Positions 10,868 through 32,093 are shown, counted from the stretch's first letter. The stretch: 48,227 bases of DNA from an uncultured archaeon (GCA_903866625.1 CAIPOI010000001.1:1-48227), one strand, 5' to 3'. Notes: generated by a model not told the origin, from the sequence alone. Numbers and translations are program-made.

Positions 10868-12181
10868 CTACATAATCTCAGATAAAATTCCTGCAGACTT
10901 AACTGTTCCTGCCTGAGGAAGAACATGTGTTTCATATCCAAGGGGATGTGGAAGTTTTGCAGTTGTATCAATTCCTGCTAACTGATAGATACTCCCTAAT
11001 AAATCTACAGGATAGACTGGACGAGTTTTAACTTCTTCGGCTTTTGAATCACTTTCTCCAACAATTCTTCCACCTTTAAAACCACCACCCGCTACTAAAA
11101 CTGAAAAAACATTTCCATAGTGATTTCTTCCACCATTCCACGGAGGTTGCCAATCAATTTTTGGACCCCTTCCAAATTCTCCTGTGCACCAAACGATTGT
11201 TGAATCTAACAATCCTTTTTGAGATAAATCTTCTAGCAAAGTTGCTAAGCCCCTATCTAGCTGTGGTGCCTGCCTTTTCATGGTGGTAAAATGATTCGAG
11301 TGAGTATCCCACCCGCCAGGATAGTTAATTACTACATAAGGAACTCCTGCTTCAACCAATCTTCTTGCGGCTAAACAATCTTGTCCAAAAGTGTGTCTGC
11401 CATATCTATCTCTTAGTTCATCTTTTTCTTTGGATAAGTTAAATACTTCTTTTCCAGAACCAAGAATTAATTCATAGGCTGCTCGTTTTGCTTCTTGAGC
11501 TTCTTTTATTGAAGGAGTTTCAGAAGTGACTCTGCTCAACAGGTCCATTTTTTCTAATAATTCTTTTCTTGATCTTTGTCTATCGTCGGTTATTCCTCTC
11601 GCTACTATTCCCTCAACTTCAAATCTTTGGGCATTTGGGTCACTACCTGTTGCAAACGGTTTATACAAGGGACCTAAAAATCCTTCTTCTGAAAATCTTC
11701 CTTGTGGTTGAGTTAAAACAATATATGGCGGAATTAAACCTTTGTAATCTTTTTTCTTAAAATAAGAAAATACTGCGCCAATTGAAGGGTAAGAAATTCT
11801 TTCTCCAGGTGTATGACCTGTTTGCATTAGGTATGCTGCGGTTTCATGACCATTATTTCTATGAGTCATACTTCTTATTAAAGAGAATTTATCTGCTTGT
11901 TTTGCTAATTCTGGAAATAGTTGTCCTAGTTGAATGCCTGGAACATTGGTTTGAATAACTTGAGAGAACTCTCCGTTGTATTCATAGCCTGCATTTGGTT
12001 TTGGGTCCCAAGTATCATTATGAGACATTCCACCCCAAAGAAAAACTTGAATAACTGATTTTGCTTTTGGTGCAGCAATTGGTTTTTGTGAGATTTCTGC
12101 TTGAGAATTGTTTGCAAGTACTAATCCTGCTGTACCTATTATTCCTCTTTTGATGGCTTCTCTTCTGGTGATGTCTGCCAT
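10868..12181 (-). CDS. DUF1501 family protein with Tat-type signal
   Basis: The N-terminus TRREAIKRGIIGTAGLVLA has a twin Arg (6-7) and a hydrophobic stretch like a Tat signal, predicting export of a folded protein. The body carries DUF1501 hallmarks: VFLWGGMSHNDTWDPKP, DTHSNHF, TGEFGRGPKIDW and GRNHYGNVFSVLVAGGGFKGG. DUF1501 proteins belong to the alkaline-phosphatase-like superfamily and are common in Planctomycetes and related bacteria; their substrates are largely unknown. Length 437 aa is normal. It is a single gene with its own TATA element (GATATAAACC) about 30 nt upstream. Acquisition from bacteria is likely but inferred. Confidence 0.85.
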   Translation of the reverse strand: MADITRREAIKRGIIGTAGLVLANNSQAEISQKPIAAPKAKSVIQVFLWGGMSHNDTWDPKPNAGYEYNGEFSQVIQTNVPGIQLGQLFPELAKQADKFSLIRSMTHRNNGHETAAYLMQTGHTPGERISYPSIGAVFSYFKKKDYKGLIPPYIVLTQPQGRFSEEGFLGPLYKPFATGSDPNAQRFEVEGIVARGITDDRQRSRKELLEKMDLLSRVTSETPSIKEAQEAKRAAYELILGSGKEVFNLSKEKDELRDRYGRHTFGQDCLAARRLVEAGVPYVVINYPGGWDTHSNHFTTMKRQAPQLDRGLATLLEDLSQKGLLDSTIVWCTGEFGRGPKIDWQPPWNGGRNHYGNVFSVLVAGGGFKGGRIVGESDSKAEEVKTRPVYPVDLLGSIYQLAGIDTTAKLPHPLGYETHVLPQAGTVKSAGILSEIM

Positions 12182-27273: not shown

Positions 27274-28836
27274 TTATACCTGCTCTTTAGTAGAAGGCAT
27301 ACCATGGGACTTCTTATAAACATCATACACTGCATAAGCAGATTTAGCAGCATTTTTCTTTGCAATTTCTCTAACCATGCTTTCTGCGTAGTTGTCTGGT
27401 TTTAAACCTTCTTTTATTTTTGCTTCTTTTTGGGATTCATCTTCTGCTTTTCTCTCTTCTTTGGTTTTTTTCTTTATTCCGAATAATGCAGCGAATGGAT
27501 TTATATCTCCTTCTTCTTTTTCTTCTTTTTTGGGTTTATCAGGAACACCTTTCAGATAGTGATCTATATCATTCTGTATCTCTTTTAAAGAATCTTGGGT
27601 AGCTCCTTGAACCAAATTAAGAGATTGATTTAAATCTGCTTGATCTAATTTTTCTTTTAACATTGCTATTTCTTGTTTGGTTAGCGCATAACCCATAAAA
27701 GAAGCATCAACTCTGCCACCAAAAGTATAGTGCTGGTCTGCTCTTTGAGGTATTCCTCTAAATTTTAAATCGACAAATGTGCAAGCATAATATTCTCTGA
27801 TTTTTCCTTTTTCAAGCCATCTTTTGAATTCTTCTGGGAGATTTTTATCAATAATTTCTTGGTCAACTTTAACACCATCAGTTTTCATAAGTGTTAGTTC
27901 AAGAATAATGGTATTAAATGCTTTTACTAATGCTGCACTAGAAGAATTCATCATTCTAAGTTCTTCAGCAGATTTTAGATAGGGTTTTGCCCATCTTGCA
28001 TAAAGTTTCAGTGAATCAACTTGACTCCTTAAATAAGCTCTTTCTATATTAAATCTTTTTCTTAGCTCATCTTCACTTAAATCTTTCCATTTTTGGAATT
28101 CTAAAAATCTTTGCTCGAGAATTCTTTTTACTCTTTCATTTAAATCTAGACCGCCGTCTTCAGGTTTTTTTGTTATCTGTTCTAAATTTGAAGCAACCAT
28201 AAAAGCATCTATAAGAGTAGCAAAACTCGCTTGAGAAAAAGCCATAGCTTTTATGCTTGTATTTCCTCTCTTGATATCTACGTTATCTAACCAAGTTTGC
28301 TTTAAGGCAAGTAAACCTGCTTCGGATTTGGACTTATCTTTATCACGAGCAGCATCATAATCGCCTAATCTTATCTCAAATTGTCTTAAATCATAAATTA
28401 TATTTATTATACTTTTTATTAAAACTCCTATAGTTTGCATAACTTTCATACCTTCTTCTTGCATTCTTGTTGCTTTACCCATTAACTCTGAAAAGTGCCC
28501 TGAACCTGGTGAAGATTGAAAATTATCTACAAGTTTTTCGGTTCTATCCGGACCCAAAAAATCAAGAATCCAAAAATAAACTGGTTCTAAGGTTTCATAA
28601 GGAGAATTATAGATTAAATTATATTTTTTTAGAGGTTTTGGTTTTACTTTATCTACTGCTGCCCAAAACTGATTTGATTTTAAAAGTTTTTTTACATCAC
28701 TTTTATTATCTGAATATAAATCAGGATTGATAGCCCCAATAATTTTACTTATTAAATAGATATTTTTATCACGAGCGCTTGCTTCATCCTTTTCAAATTT
28801 TGCTTTTTCTTCTGGAGATATTTCTTTTTCAGCCAT
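27274..28836 (-). CDS. Large helical orphan protein (520 aa)
   Basis: Mostly alpha-helical with repeated charged helices (RVKRILEQRFLEFQKWKDLS). A central part is richer in strands (YYACTFVDLKFRGIPQRADQ). A Lys/Glu-rich linker near 420-465 surrounds a DINPFAALFGI patch. No membrane helix is convincing. The ATG follows AAAAGAGGAAC, the same leader sequence as for the TIM-barrel gene. It is the first gene of a leftward run that reaches 23658. No family recognised. Confidence 0.7.
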   Translation of the reverse strand: MAEKEISPEEKAKFEKDEASARDKNIYLISKIIGAINPDLYSDNKSDVKKLLKSNQFWAAVDKVKPKPLKKYNLIYNSPYETLEPVYFWILDFLGPDRTEKLVDNFQSSPGSGHFSELMGKATRMQEEGMKVMQTIGVLIKSIINIIYDLRQFEIRLGDYDAARDKDKSKSEAGLLALKQTWLDNVDIKRGNTSIKAMAFSQASFATLIDAFMVASNLEQITKKPEDGGLDLNERVKRILEQRFLEFQKWKDLSEDELRKRFNIERAYLRSQVDSLKLYARWAKPYLKSAEELRMMNSSSAALVKAFNTIILELTLMKTDGVKVDQEIIDKNLPEEFKRWLEKGKIREYYACTFVDLKFRGIPQRADQHYTFGGRVDASFMGYALTKQEIAMLKEKLDQADLNQSLNLVQGATQDSLKEIQNDIDHYLKGVPDKPKKEEKEEGDINPFAALFGIKKKTKEERKAEDESQKEAKIKEGLKPDNYAESMVREIAKKNAAKSAYAVYDVYKKSHGMPSTKEQV

Positions 28837-28906: not shown

Positions 28907-29143
28907 TTAAGCAAATTTACAACTTACAGAATCGCATTCATGAGTTTCACAACTACTTGAAGGAGGATTATACTCACAAGAACAATGGGGATCGCAATTA
29001 CATTCTGTGTCACACTTACAATGACTAGAACAAAAGGTTCTTTCATCTAAAGTGTCTTTAGAGTGGCCTATTCTTAAAGAACCTGCTATGTCTAAAGAAT
29101 CTGATGGTTTTACACTTTCTAATCTATAGTTTGGTTTTTCCAT
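28907..29143 (-). CDS. Putative RiPP precursor 1, Cys-rich peptide (78 aa, 10 Cys)
   Basis: The leader MEKPNYRLESVKPSDSLDIA and on to DERTF is followed by a core with Cys at 38, 42, 44, 48, 50, 54, 56, 65, 70 and 75. The run 42-56 has the spacing C-x-C-x3-C-x-C-x3-C-x-C. Start 29143 is chosen because MEKPNYRLES matches the start of the peptide at 29609-29806; the longer frame overlaps the upstream gene. It is the most distal of five precursor genes behind the radical SAM gene. The leader DNA is 104/107 identical to that of precursor 4. Alternative: a metallothionein-like metal-binding peptide. Confidence 0.75.
   Translation of the reverse strand: MEKPNYRLESVKPSDSLDIAGSLRIGHSKDTLDERTFCSSHCKCDTECNCDPHCSCEYNPPSSSCETHECDSVSCKFA
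29037..29143 (-). repeat. Leader duplication, copy A (partner at 29700-29806)
   Basis: This 107-bp block encodes the leader of precursor 1 and is repeated at 29700-29806 with three substitutions by my count. Similarity stops at the core. The break at the leader/core junction points to duplication followed by replacement or fast divergence of the core. Confidence 0.85.
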
Positions 29144-29144
29144 T

Positions 29145-29366
29145 TTAAGTTTGAAAACAAGAACAAGGATCATACTCGCAGCCGCAGTGGCTTCTGCAAT
29201 CTAAATCGCAATTGCAATTTGAAAAACGCTTATTAGGTGGATTAAATGTCCTTTCGGCTACTCCTTCCCAAGTGTTTCCTAGTTGAATTTTACTTTTAAT
29301 TTCTTTAGAGCCCACTAACAGAAGTAAACTTTCTAGTCTATAATCTGGTTTTGTTTGAGTATTCAT
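29145..29366 (-). CDS. Putative RiPP precursor 2, Cys-rich peptide (73 aa, 7 Cys)
   Basis: Starts MNTQTKPDYRLES, sharing KPxYRLES with precursors 1 and 4. The leader middle is unlike theirs (LLLLVGSKEIKSKIQLG). A shortened AERTF motif precedes the core, and Cys are at 51, 53, 57, 61, 63, 68 and 70. The upstream in-frame extension is rejected because it lies in precursor 3. The ATG is preceded by AAACTAAAAACAAT, nearly the same as before precursor 3, with no Shine-Dalgarno sequence. Confidence 0.75.
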   Translation of the reverse strand: MNTQTKPDYRLESLLLLVGSKEIKSKIQLGNTWEGVAERTFNPPNKRFSNCNCDLDCRSHCGCEYDPCSCFQT

Positions 29367-29373
29367 ATTGTTT

Positions 29374-29574
29374 TTAGTTTGAATAGCACATGGGCCGGTA
29401 ACCATGGCATTCACAAGCAGCATTGCAAGTACAAACCCCATCACAAGAGCAATGACTTCTTTCTTCAAGCTTTCTTGAAGTAGGTTTTACTTGAAATAAA
29501 CTTAATATCCCTGTTTGAATATCTGCGCTTCTCGTATCGGTTAATCTGTAGTTGGGTCTATTTGATTTGTTCAT
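29374..29574 (-). CDS. Putative RiPP precursor 3, Cys-rich peptide (66 aa, 7 Cys)
   Basis: Starts MNKSNRPNYRLTD with the RPxYRL form of the shared motif. The leader ends LEERS and the core is HCSCDGVCTCNAACECHGYR plus a final Cys63. Cys fall at 42, 44, 48, 50, 54, 56 and 63; the first six positions are identical to those of precursor 1 although the sequence between them differs. It ends 7 nt before the ATG of precursor 2. Confidence 0.75.
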   Translation of the reverse strand: MNKSNRPNYRLTDTRSADIQTGILSLFQVKPTSRKLEERSHCSCDGVCTCNAACECHGYRPMCYSN

Positions 29575-29608
29575 ATTATTTTTAGTTTATTTTTATTTAA
29601 GAGTTTTT

Positions 29609-29806
29609 CTATACTGAATAACATTTTTTGTGTTGTTCACAATCATCATTTTCGCAGTTACACTGAGGATTACAGCTACAATCTTTTGTAAAACAAAAAG
29701 TTCTTTCGTCTAAAGTGTCTTTAGAGTGGCCTATTCTTAAAGAACCTGCTATGTCTAAAGAATCTGATGCTTTTACACTCTCTAATCTATAGTTTGGTTT
29801 TTCCAT
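29609..29806 (-). CDS. Putative RiPP precursor 4, Cys-rich peptide (65 aa, 7 Cys)
   Basis: The leader is identical to precursor 1 except Ala for Pro at residue 12. The core after DERTF has Cys at 38, 43, 45, 49, 51, 56 and 62 (DCSCNPQCNCENDDC). The sharp contrast between near-identical leader and different core is typical of RiPP precursor families. The ATG comes 6 nt after the stop of precursor 5. Confidence 0.78.
   Translation of the reverse strand: MEKPNYRLESVKASDSLDIAGSLRIGHSKDTLDERTFCFTKDCSCNPQCNCENDDCEQHKKCYSV
29700..29806 (-). repeat. Leader duplication, copy B (partner at 29037-29143)
   Basis: Encodes the leader of precursor 4. Only three bases differ from copy A, one of them changing Pro12 to Ala. 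Confidence 0.85.
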
Positions 29807-29812
29807 GTTTTA

Positions 29813-30157
29813 TTAGTCCGATTTACAAATCCTCCCTGCGCTATCACAATAACAGCCAGATTCAAAAGGGCCGCAATCGTTGCAGCTATTATCGTCGCAG
29901 GAACAAGCGCTCTCACATCTACAATCATTATCACAGAAACAATGACTGCAAGATTCTTTCTTTTGAGTATTGCATGTGCAGCTTTTTTCAGAATCACAAG
30001 AGCATTCGGGACTACAACTATCTTTATGAAAAAAACAAAAAGTTCTTTCATCAGTTCTTTCTGAAAAAGTTCTTAGTTGTAGTGTGCTAGTTATAGCATT
30101 TCTTCCTTCTGTCGAAGTTTTAGGAAGTCTATAACTTGGTTTTGTTGAATATTTCAT
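29813..30157 (-). CDS. Putative RiPP precursor 5, long Cys-rich peptide (114 aa, 18 Cys)
   Basis: Starts MKYSTKPSYRLPKTS with the KPxYRL motif and reaches DERTF at about 36-40. The core is about twice the usual length, with 18 Cys including two blocks of C-x-C-x3/5-C-x-C spacing (ECSCDSEKSCTC and HCFCDNDCRCESACSC). It is the first gene after the maturase; the ATG lies 1 nt beyond the maturase stop codon, so translation is probably coupled. Confidence 0.78.
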   Translation of the reverse strand: MKYSTKPSYRLPKTSTEGRNAITSTLQLRTFSERTDERTFCFFHKDSCSPECSCDSEKSCTCNTQKKESCSHCFCDNDCRCESACSCDDNSCNDCGPFESGCYCDSAGRICKSD

Positions 30158-30158
30158 G

Positions 30159-31565
30159 TTAACAAGATTTTGTTTGAGTTGGAGGCTCATTTATTTGTTG
30201 AGCTAAGGGTTTATTAATATTAGCATCAAGTTCTCTTGAAAGTCTATCTAATAATAATCCTTGATTAATACCACATCTAAAGTTATTTGAGGGGTCTCTT
30301 AAGCTTCCAGATTGTTCGACTACCTTAGCTAAACAATCGCCCGAACAGTTATATTTTGCAAAACAATTTTCACAATGGGGCATAGAACTTACCTTTCTTT
30401 GTTTGAGATTTGTTATAGTCGATGTATTGAAATCAAATTTTTTATTTTCGCTATCAAATCCTCCAATGTAAAATAGACCTGCATGTTTATCTTCCTTTCT
30501 GCAAACTTCTAAACATGTGGTTACATCTCCATCAGGAGTTATAAAAAAGTTTCTTCCACAAGCCCCACAGAATTCTTCTCCTATTTTATCTAAAGTTGCT
30601 CCTGAATAATAAATCGAAACACCTAGCTCTTTTGCTTTTATTTCTGCCTCACGCATAAATCTTAGGTAATCTTCTGGTTTTGGGGCTCTTGCTTGGCTTG
30701 TTCTGCATCTTCCACATTCAAATAAAGGTTCTAAATGAAAACTTTTATTTTTTGATATTGAATTAAAAAATTCTACTATTTCTGACATTCGTGAAACACT
30801 TGCATCGGTAATTGTTGCCCTCATACCATAATTATAAGATTTACCCTGTCTATCTCTGGTTTGTTCTAAAAATTTTAGAGTGTTCATTACATCAGAATAA
30901 GAACCAACTAACTTACCTCCTTGATATTTTGGTCTTTGACTATCTTGAATGTCTTGAGGTCCATCTATAGATAAGCTTAAGTGATCGATATTTTGAACTA
31001 TCCAATCCAGCATCTTTTGATTATGAACTCCATTAGTAACTGCTCCAACACTACCTCTAAGACCAGCTAGACTTGCTTGATATCTAAAATAATTAACTGC
31101 GAAATCTAAAAAGGGCATATTCCCTTCTAATAGGGGTTCGCCGCCCCCATGAAAACCTAGATTTACGGAATTCACTTTTTTTTCTAATGCATTTTCAATG
31201 ATTAAATCAATAGCGCTTCTTGCAATTTCTTTATCCATGACTTTTCCAACCCTCTCACCACCTAATGAATAACAATAAACACATCTCAGATTACAAGCAT
31301 AGGTTGGTAAAAGTGTAACTGAAGTTGGAGCAAAAGGTTCATTAGTAATAGGGGGTAATTCTCTTTGTTTATCTACTAGAACTCTTTGATTTCTTAACTG
31401 AGTGAATAGGTCTCTATTAAGTTTTTCAGGATCTTCTCCTGATTGAACTTGCTGAAGATATTTTATAACACCGCCTCCAACTTGCATAGCTGAGCCTTCT
31501 AAAGGGGCGTATAAGATAAACTGGTCATTTTTTGGAATGACAAATAATTCTCTGGTGATTTCCAT
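30159..31565 (-). CDS. Radical SAM/SPASM peptide maturase
   Basis: The 468-aa protein has a 4Fe-4S/SAM motif CNLRCVYC (Cys91, 95, 98), a GGEP-type motif in FHGGGEPLLE (~138-147) and the strand SLSIDGP near 198. The SPASM region has Cys333, 336, 351 and 355, then Cys398-x2-401-x5-407-x3-411 and Cys431, enough for two auxiliary clusters. The N-terminal ~70 residues look like a small recognition domain for leader peptides (RRE/PqqD-like), placed by position only. Relatives install thioether or carbon-carbon links on Cys-rich peptides (SCIFF/ranthipeptide maturases). Five Cys-rich peptide genes follow on the same strand. The ATG is 20-30 nt from a TATA box. Confidence 0.88.
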   Translation of the reverse strand: MEITRELFVIPKNDQFILYAPLEGSAMQVGGGVIKYLQQVQSGEDPEKLNRDLFTQLRNQRVLVDKQRELPPITNEPFAPTSVTLLPTYACNLRCVYCYSLGGERVGKVMDKEIARSAIDLIIENALEKKVNSVNLGFHGGGEPLLEGNMPFLDFAVNYFRYQASLAGLRGSVGAVTNGVHNQKMLDWIVQNIDHLSLSIDGPQDIQDSQRPKYQGGKLVGSYSDVMNTLKFLEQTRDRQGKSYNYGMRATITDASVSRMSEIVEFFNSISKNKSFHLEPLFECGRCRTSQARAPKPEDYLRFMREAEIKAKELGVSIYYSGATLDKIGEEFCGACGRNFFITPDGDVTTCLEVCRKEDKHAGLFYIGGFDSENKKFDFNTSTITNLKQRKVSSMPHCENCFAKYNCSGDCLAKVVEQSGSLRDPSNNFRCGINQGLLLDRLSRELDANINKPLAQQINEPPTQTKSC

Positions 31566-31583: not shown

Positions 31584-31595
31584 TATATTTAAATC
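31584..31595 (-). promoter_or_regulatory. TATA box of the radical SAM-peptide operon
   Basis: Minus strand GATTTAAATATA, 20-30 nt before the maturase ATG at 31565. No other TATA box is obvious between the maturase and precursor 1, so all six genes may share this promoter. Confidence 0.45.
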
Positions 31596-31670
31596 TTTCT
31601 TATGTTATCATTTTATAGTTACATATTATGTTTACAAATATCTTTAAAAACTTCTAAGCTATACCCTATT

Positions 31671-32093
31671 ATGGCTTTTGGCTTATTCAAAAATAAAAAG
31701 AGGTTGTTAGACCTTAGAAATCATGATGATGTTGAACTTAGCACAAGAAATAGTGCTAAAACTTCTTTTGACCCAAATACAGGTAACATTATTCCAAGCT
31801 CACCGATGATTAATCAAGATTCTTCTGCTCCAGTTCAGTCTTCAGGTAGTAATCAGTCTTTTAGTGGAGGTTTTGATTTTTTTGGAAATCCTATAAACTC
31901 AGGTAATACTCCAAGTAGCAGCTCCAGCAATTCTTTTGATTCTGGTTTTAGTTCAAGTCAGTCTTCTTCAAGTTCGTTTGAAACAAGAATAAATGATATT
32001 TCTGATAGATTTTCCAGACTTTTAGATAGGATAGACTTGCTCGAGAAAAAGCTTGATAGACTTGAAAGAAGAAATGGTGTTGGAGGGTATTAG
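31671..32093 (+). CDS. Ser-rich protein with C-terminal coiled coil (140 aa)
   Basis: ATG 31671 (MAFGLFKNKKRLLDLRN) is chosen because ATCTTTAAAAAC lies 20-30 nt upstream; the longer frame would begin before that promoter. A short basic N-terminus is followed by a Ser/Gly/Asn-rich linker and a C-terminal coiled coil (DISDRFSRLLDRIDLLEKKL). It could be a small scaffold or adaptor. Divergent from the radical SAM operon. No family recognised. Confidence 0.65.
   Translation: MAFGLFKNKKRLLDLRNHDDVELSTRNSAKTSFDPNTGNIIPSSPMINQDSSAPVQSSGSNQSFSGGFDFFGNPINSGNTPSSSSSNSFDSGFSSSQSSSSSFETRINDISDRFSRLLDRIDLLEKKLDRLERRNGVGGY

Follow-up and report, generated by a model that had tools for sequence, protein, structure and literature searches.

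The stretch analysed here, referred to as the window, is one complete contig (48,227 b) from a 725.6 kb genome of 8 contigs. It carries a radical SAM gene followed by a run of small Cys-rich genes, which raises the question of whether enzyme and peptides together form a RiPP cassette and, if so, by what chemistry it would act and in which organisms it occurs. The comparative evidence, as read from sequence, strongly supports a RiPP cassette. We assign a probability of roughly 0.8 to a cassette in which leaders are held by an RRE and CxC cores are modified by SAM-radical chemistry, with Cys-Asp/Asn/Glu thioethers as the likely outcome.

Gene organization and genomic context

All six genes are on the minus strand, arranged head to tail in the order maturase, P1, P2, P3, P4 and P5 and separated by gaps of 1, 6, 34, 7 and 1 nt, respectively.

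31584..31593, minus strand: TATA-like box TTTAAATATA, 18 nt upstream of the maturase ATG (sequence reading only)
30159..31565, minus strand: radical SAM/SPASM peptide maturase, 468 aa (Pfam Radical_SAM; NCBIfam below cutoff; CteB-like model)
31371..31565, minus strand: N-terminal RRE-like domain of the maturase, residues 1-65 (AlphaFold2 model)
31272..31295, minus strand: radical SAM CxxxCxxC motif (C91, C95, C98), invariant in all aligned relatives
30273..30569, minus strand: SPASM domain, seven invariant Cys, C333-C431 (alignment of relatives)
29813..30157, minus strand: precursor P1, 114 aa, 18 Cys; KPSYRL leader, DERTF box, CxC core
29609..29806, minus strand: precursor P2, 65 aa, 7 Cys; leader 110/114 nt identical to P5
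29374..29574, minus strand: precursor P3, 66 aa, 7 Cys; RPNYRL leader, EERSH box
29145..29366, minus strand: precursor P4, 73 aa, 7 Cys, with a looser core; KPDYRL leader
28907..29143, minus strand: precursor P5, 78 aa, 10 Cys; leader near-identical to P2

An earlier note on this DNA had described five consecutive same-strand genes for Cys-rich peptides (7, 7, 7, 10 and 18 Cys), the first beginning 1 nt past the maturase stop, with no exporter or protease adjoining. The Cys counts are right for all five, the coordinates confirm the position of P1, and the absence of an adjoining exporter or protease holds within the window. Judged by its sequence, the TATA-like box is a putative leaderless-type promoter. 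Two candidate features were discarded: a longer P4 with a signal-like N-terminus starting at a TTG (29468), whose added segment overlaps P3 in a different frame, and a plus-strand ORF (29767-30090), taken as the antisense reflection of P1.

The maturase is single-copy in the 725.6 kb genome, with none outside the window locus; no further clear copy of the peptides was found elsewhere in that genome, and all significant homologous sites of P5 within it fall inside the cassette. The genome also encodes a TCP-1/cpn60-family chaperonin of archaeal look (Pfam Cpn60_TCP1), which together with the TATA-like box before the maturase is consistent with an archaeon, while the DPANN placement rests on gene content and the smallness of the genome. 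A DUF1501 protein with a Tat-like N-terminus lies at 10868-12181 (minus strand) of the window, in a genome that is otherwise archaeal-looking.

The flanks of the cassette (homologues of 27274-28836 and of 31602-32093, the latter followed by a gltX-like gene) were compared across related genomes. In the genus-mate G001 and in G012 the flanking genes are adjacent and the whole RiPP locus is missing, and in G195, from a different genus, a single unrelated gene separates the cassette from the 27274-28836 homologue. A close maturase occurs in only 4 of the 200 genomes searched in the order (G000, G195, G114 and a truncated copy in G241). Maturase and peptides are gained or lost as one cassette, and their distribution is patchy.

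The maturase resembles CteB in domain layout and predicted fold

Pfam detects Radical_SAM above cutoff in the maturase and SPASM weakly. The full SPASM-type Cys set previously attributed to this 468-aa protein (C333, C351, C398, C401, C407, C411 and C431) is complete and conserved in 16 relatives, across which these seven residues and the radical SAM triad are the only invariant Cys. The full auxiliary-cluster Cys set, a ranthipeptide-type criterion, is present. An AlphaFold2 model built from 16 sequences (pLDDT 88.5, pTM 0.87), superseding a poor model from three sequences (pLDDT 58), arranges residues 8-59 as three strands followed by three helices, and the block of residues 1-60 reaches a pLDDT of 90-95. 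We take this arrangement to be the PqqD-like RRE layout. The RRE fold for which the earlier note suggested examining residues 1-70 is represented in the model by an RRE-like N-terminus, from which leader binding is inferred. A Foldseek search with the model placed CteB at the top (TM 0.76-0.77 on the target, 465-472 columns), with an alignment spanning nearly the full length, followed by ChlB and anaerobic sulfatase maturases.

Neither the window enzyme nor any precursor reached cutoff in NCBIfam. Several RiPP-maturase models do match the enzyme, all below cutoff: nif11 at the top (119 bits against a cutoff of 519), the PapB model NF047865 (111.6 against 340), the SCIFF-maturase model TIGR03974 (104.1 against 425), CefB (91 against 600) and TIGR04463 (63.7 against 525), the CefB and TIGR04463 alignments being nearly full length, N-terminus included. 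The SCIFF, PapB, CefB, TIGR04463 and nif11 models match 13 of 13 maturases tested, and the top PapB-model E-value among these was 1.5e-48, at a score well under the 340-bit cutoff.

Precursor leaders are conserved and cores vary

A (K/R)P-x-YRL motif near the N-terminus, claimed for all five precursors, is indeed present within the first 11 residues of each. Two further shared elements apply to P1, P2, P3 and P5 but not to P4: the (D/E)ER(T/S) box just before the first Cys, which in P4 reads AERTF with the first Cys later, and the CxCx3CxC core, in place of which P4 carries CNCDLDCRSHCGC. The P3 core holds two overlapping CxCx3CxC instances. The leader DNA of P2 and P5 is identical at 110 of 114 positions, and their cores cannot be aligned except with many gaps; a peptide pair in G564 likewise has leader DNA identical at 126 of 129 positions and divergent cores. 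This combination of conserved leader and variable core, arising independently in two archaea, is in our reading of the sequences the clearest RiPP signature. Leader boxes of the RLE and DRTF types recur in G114, G564 and L057. The collected cores contain 36 instances of CxCx3CxC, whereas 1000 shuffles gave 0.83 on average and 4 at most, so the density of the motif is not due to chance.

No window peptide matched any Pfam family, metallothionein families included, and an NCBIfam search with these peptides up to E=1 returned nothing but a chance-level lachnocin match (E=0.97) and no SCIFF precursor. P5-like peptides were absent from 179 other genomes of the order in a single-sequence search, which is blind to diverged peptides of the G195 and G114 type.

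Maturase and CxC products are linked across phyla

Relatives were picked from the enzyme sequence alone, ignoring neighbouring genes. A single-sequence query against species-genome contigs found nothing, and relatives surfaced only with a three-sequence alignment. Within the same archaeal class they comprise G195 (50%), G114 (44%), G564, G558 and G489, in all of which the maturase adjoins one or two Cys-rich peptides. Searching about 85,000 species genomes yielded ten full-length relatives, all with a nearby CxC product, in Verrucomicrobiota, Nitrospirota, Nanoarchaeota, Actinomycetota, Acidobacteriota (three, one of them Bryobacterales), Bacteroidota, Armatimonadota and Chloroflexota; three more came from plasmids, those of Caballeronia sp. 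NK8, Candidatus Chlorohelix allophototropha and Methylocystis iwaonis. Viral contigs and phages, also searched, gave only distant SPASM or radical SAM enzymes.

A same-strand Cys-rich CxC product lies beside the maturase in 19 of 19 distinct clade members, and meets the strict CxCx3CxC pattern in 15 of them (L059 being counted by inspection; the automated tally is 14, presumably owing to the overlap filter). Among about 50 lower-scoring SPASM loci, many of which had short flanks, only two (L038 and L080) had such an ORF outside the clade clusters. As a hold-out, 199 genomes from the phylum of the Acidobacteriota locus provided five new maturases, four with a CxC product, in every case a tail on a Tat-signal protein; the fifth (G627), whose contig ends about 2 kb away, showed none. 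In a tree the maturase clade is not strictly monophyletic, at least two changes being forced, perhaps partly through a long-branch effect.

The linkage that the earlier note proposed to look for in related genomes is seen throughout the first collection and in four of the five hold-out loci, and its RiPP reading is upheld by this linkage, by conserved leaders with variable cores in two archaea, by the RRE-like fold and by cassette-like gain and loss. The family is not specifically archaeal, extending from DPANN to many bacterial phyla.

CxC cores occur on free peptides and on large Tat-signal proteins

The CxC products are small peptides in some loci and proteins of about 390-510 aa, mostly WD40, in others. 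The large carriers combine a Tat-type or lipoprotein-type signal with a C-terminal tail (e.g. PCGSPIPAGAICTCNCV...CSCNKVCTCVPVYY), and in bacteria the CxC core often sits on the tail of a Tat-signal WD40 protein; the L060 product ends in a run of CTCVGQ/CSCVGQ hexads. These mostly WD40 proteins with Tat or lipoprotein signals have the look of large substrates for the same family of maturases. In the Tat carriers a leader-like motif (e.g. PPRYELQSV, EPEIYSIHR) precedes the RR motif, from which we infer that signal cleavage could also strip the leader.

Large carriers were located at L061 2059-3450, L062 7198-8655, L063 9326-10672, L060 11955-13445, L154 5450-7973 and in L164-L167. They share a conserved C-terminal segment of the type PCG(S/A)(P/A)(I/L)P(A/P)GA(I/V)C, usually with a CxC tail, and some terminate in HYW(H/Y)PN.

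Residue bias after CxC and proposed mechanism

Directly after CxC, Asp, Glu or Asn is found in 15 of 17 cases in the window (background 22/92), 27 of 42 in archaea (65/298) and 29 of 68 in bacteria (43/430), and the same counts reveal no residue bias at the position before CxC. The D/E/N set was picked after inspecting the counts and repeats within a peptide are not independent, so that any significance is optimistic. In bacteria the commonest next residue is Val (24/68), and the middle residue of CxC is Thr or Ser in 45 of 68. Cys-Asp/Glu/Asn thioethers are known from SPASM-type enzymes, PapB tolerating Cys-Xn-Asp with n=0-6 (PMC9413430, PMC11002830), and CteB joins Cys to Thr (PMC11002830). 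Given that enzymes of this kind are known to couple Cys with Asp, Glu, Asn or Thr, and that PapB works with n=0-6, we favour Cys-to-Asp/Asn/Glu thioethers, at about even odds; this chemistry is inferred by analogy and none has been observed. The frequent Val after bacterial CxC means that the acceptor there may differ, or be neither acidic nor amide.

In the mechanism that we propose, the N-terminal RRE of the maturase would hold the leader of each precursor (YRL box, hydrophobic strand and ERTF box), while S-adenosylmethionine radical chemistry, aided by the SPASM auxiliary iron-sulfur clusters, would modify C-terminal cores made of C-x-C-[D/N/E]-x-x hexads. The likely product would be thioether rings that tie a Cys sulfur to a carbon in the side chain of a neighbouring Asp, Asn or Glu, in the manner of PapB-type ranthipeptides, and part of the Cys would stay free, possibly to bind metal. 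The occurrence of modification, the bond type, leader removal, the location of the product and its function are all inferences. A metal-binding or redox role is plausible by analogy with bufferins, with no direct support here.

Alternative explanations

The enzyme might modify these peptides otherwise, through alpha-carbon sactionines, Cys-Cys or Cys-Thr links, epimerisation or loss of a group. The reaction cannot be read from homology alone, the known CteB linkage is from Cys to Thr, the middle CxC residue in bacteria is often Thr or Ser, and Val frequently follows CxC there; we regard this as a real possibility, somewhat short of even. Weighing against it are the very strong Asp/Glu/Asn bias in the window and the fact that the nearest fold and several top-scoring profiles belong to thioether-forming enzymes.

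That the system belongs to an already named family (SCIFF, PapB/freyrasin, CefB, TIGR04463 or nif11) could be argued from the fact that all these models match every maturase tested, yet the window maturase attains at most 119 bits against cutoffs of 340 and more, no precursor is matched, and the hexads have no Asp at Cys+4, unlike the CX3D of PapB; we consider it improbable. Still harder to sustain is that the peptides are metallothionein-like metal carriers with the radical SAM enzyme merely an unrelated neighbour. CxC arrays with acidic residues do look like metal-binding proteins, no exporter is present, and modified Cys-rich RiPPs such as bufferins bind metals (PMC12452194). An unrelated neighbour would not account for linkage throughout the clade, in many phyla, and in most of the hold-out, nor for leaders that are conserved while cores vary freely, and the window peptides lack a Pfam match or any meaningful NCBIfam match. 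The modified product could still bind metal.

Comparison with known systems

Like CteB/SCIFF (thermocellin), the window combines radical SAM, SPASM and an N-terminal RRE in one chain with small Cys-rich precursors, and CteB is the top solved-structure match (5wgg, 5why). Identity in the structural alignment is only 18%, however, and the enzyme falls under the TIGR03974 cutoff; the precursors are built on CxC hexads and not on the pattern of six Cys per forty-five residues, and there are several per maturase. PapB/freyrasin shares a SPASM maturase, repeated Cys and acidic units and an expectation of multiple rings, but its Cys-X3-Asp arrangement differs from the acidic residue right after CxC (Cys+1, Cys+3) in the window. 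PapB-type Cys-X3-Asp/Glu repeats are absent by sequence reading: counting four residues on from a Cys within the hexad leads either to the next Cys or to position 5, where a small residue usually stands. CefB (Cys-every-fifth) and TIGR04463 have Cys-rich or Cys-repeat targets by name, but the scores are far under their cutoffs and the window precursors match no NCBIfam model. Bufferins and TIGR04222 (MNIO-modified) also place a modified Cys-rich segment on an exported protein, sometimes near the C-terminus, using a general export pathway (PMC12452194); theirs, however, is an MNIO iron oxidase acting on Sec or membrane proteins, whereas here a radical SAM enzyme is paired with Tat-signal WD40 proteins. 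Of the ranthipeptide/SCIFF-type assignment made earlier, the likely chemistry can be kept, while SCIFF or PapB membership fails by the curated models; as these scores are far under cutoff, we use "ranthipeptide" as a label for likely chemistry and not for proven membership.

Genome mining has reported radical SAM RiPP clusters, ranthipeptides included, in archaea and RiPP clusters in DPANN (PMC12144867), so finding a ranthipeptide-like cluster in an archaeon is by itself no novelty. The apparent novelty lies in the family, with its own lineage of maturases, its cores of CxC-[D/N/E] hexads, its YRL/ERTF leader, and its occurrence both as an archaeal set of five precursors and in a Tat-exported form; in the open-access literature we found no radical SAM/SPASM RiPP paired with WD40 or Woesearchaeota, and no CxC-hexad precursors. 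A broader proposal, which we advance only tentatively, is that a single lineage of maturases builds thioether ladders on C-x-C-[D/N/E] hexads throughout a widespread RiPP family, the carriers being free peptides (in DPANN archaea and several bacteria) or the C-terminal tails of Tat-signal WD40 beta-propeller proteins, with the leader of the latter in the Tat n-region. If true, a leader in an extended Tat n-region would make export and leader removal one event. The system offers a testable RiPP family that ultra-small archaea have in common with bacteria of many phyla; some members lie on plasmids from named isolates or enrichments (Methylocystis iwaonis SD4, Caballeronia sp. NK8 and Chlorohelix). 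Archaea with genomes of 0.7 Mb would, on this evidence, retain natural-product cassettes for several peptides, and radical SAM enzymes might modify the tails of large secreted proteins besides small peptides.

Gene content of related and neighbouring clusters

Enzymes on Edwardsiella and Salmonella plasmids (27-28%) were rejected as members of another family, associated with a non-CxC Gly-rich peptide, an ABC transporter and an S8 peptidase. Their loci (L156 4262-9662 and L157 4084-9482) contain an uncharacterised gene, a radical SAM enzyme and a 57-59 aa peptide with FEFLCCRGG and a Gly-rich tail. In the archaeal genome G124 (L038 5741-7457) a different SPASM enzyme (147 bits to the maturase family) follows a peptide with CSCQCACDCVCICDC, which looks like a second archaeal Cys-rich RiPP-like pair. 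G468 (L052 577-2503) has a remote maturase between two short acidic CxC peptides (CICDGDC and CYGDCCDNCDCYC). Divergent to the maturase of G195 is a gene for a weak C39-like peptidase (L050 8712-9188), a candidate leader peptidase without counterpart in the window.

The Verrucomicrobial (L055 7423-12481) and Nitrospirota (L056 633-5003) loci share the order maturase, CxC peptide, TPR protein and B12-binding radical SAM, the former additionally encoding a Tat-type protein with a PqqD domain. The Chlorohelix (L154 2770-5463) and Bryobacterales (L060 7551-11458) clusters each encode two more enzymes next to the CxC system, a second SPASM protein and another radical SAM protein, and the Chlorohelix cluster also a 98-aa possible RRE protein; given these extra enzymes, more than one modification is possible there.
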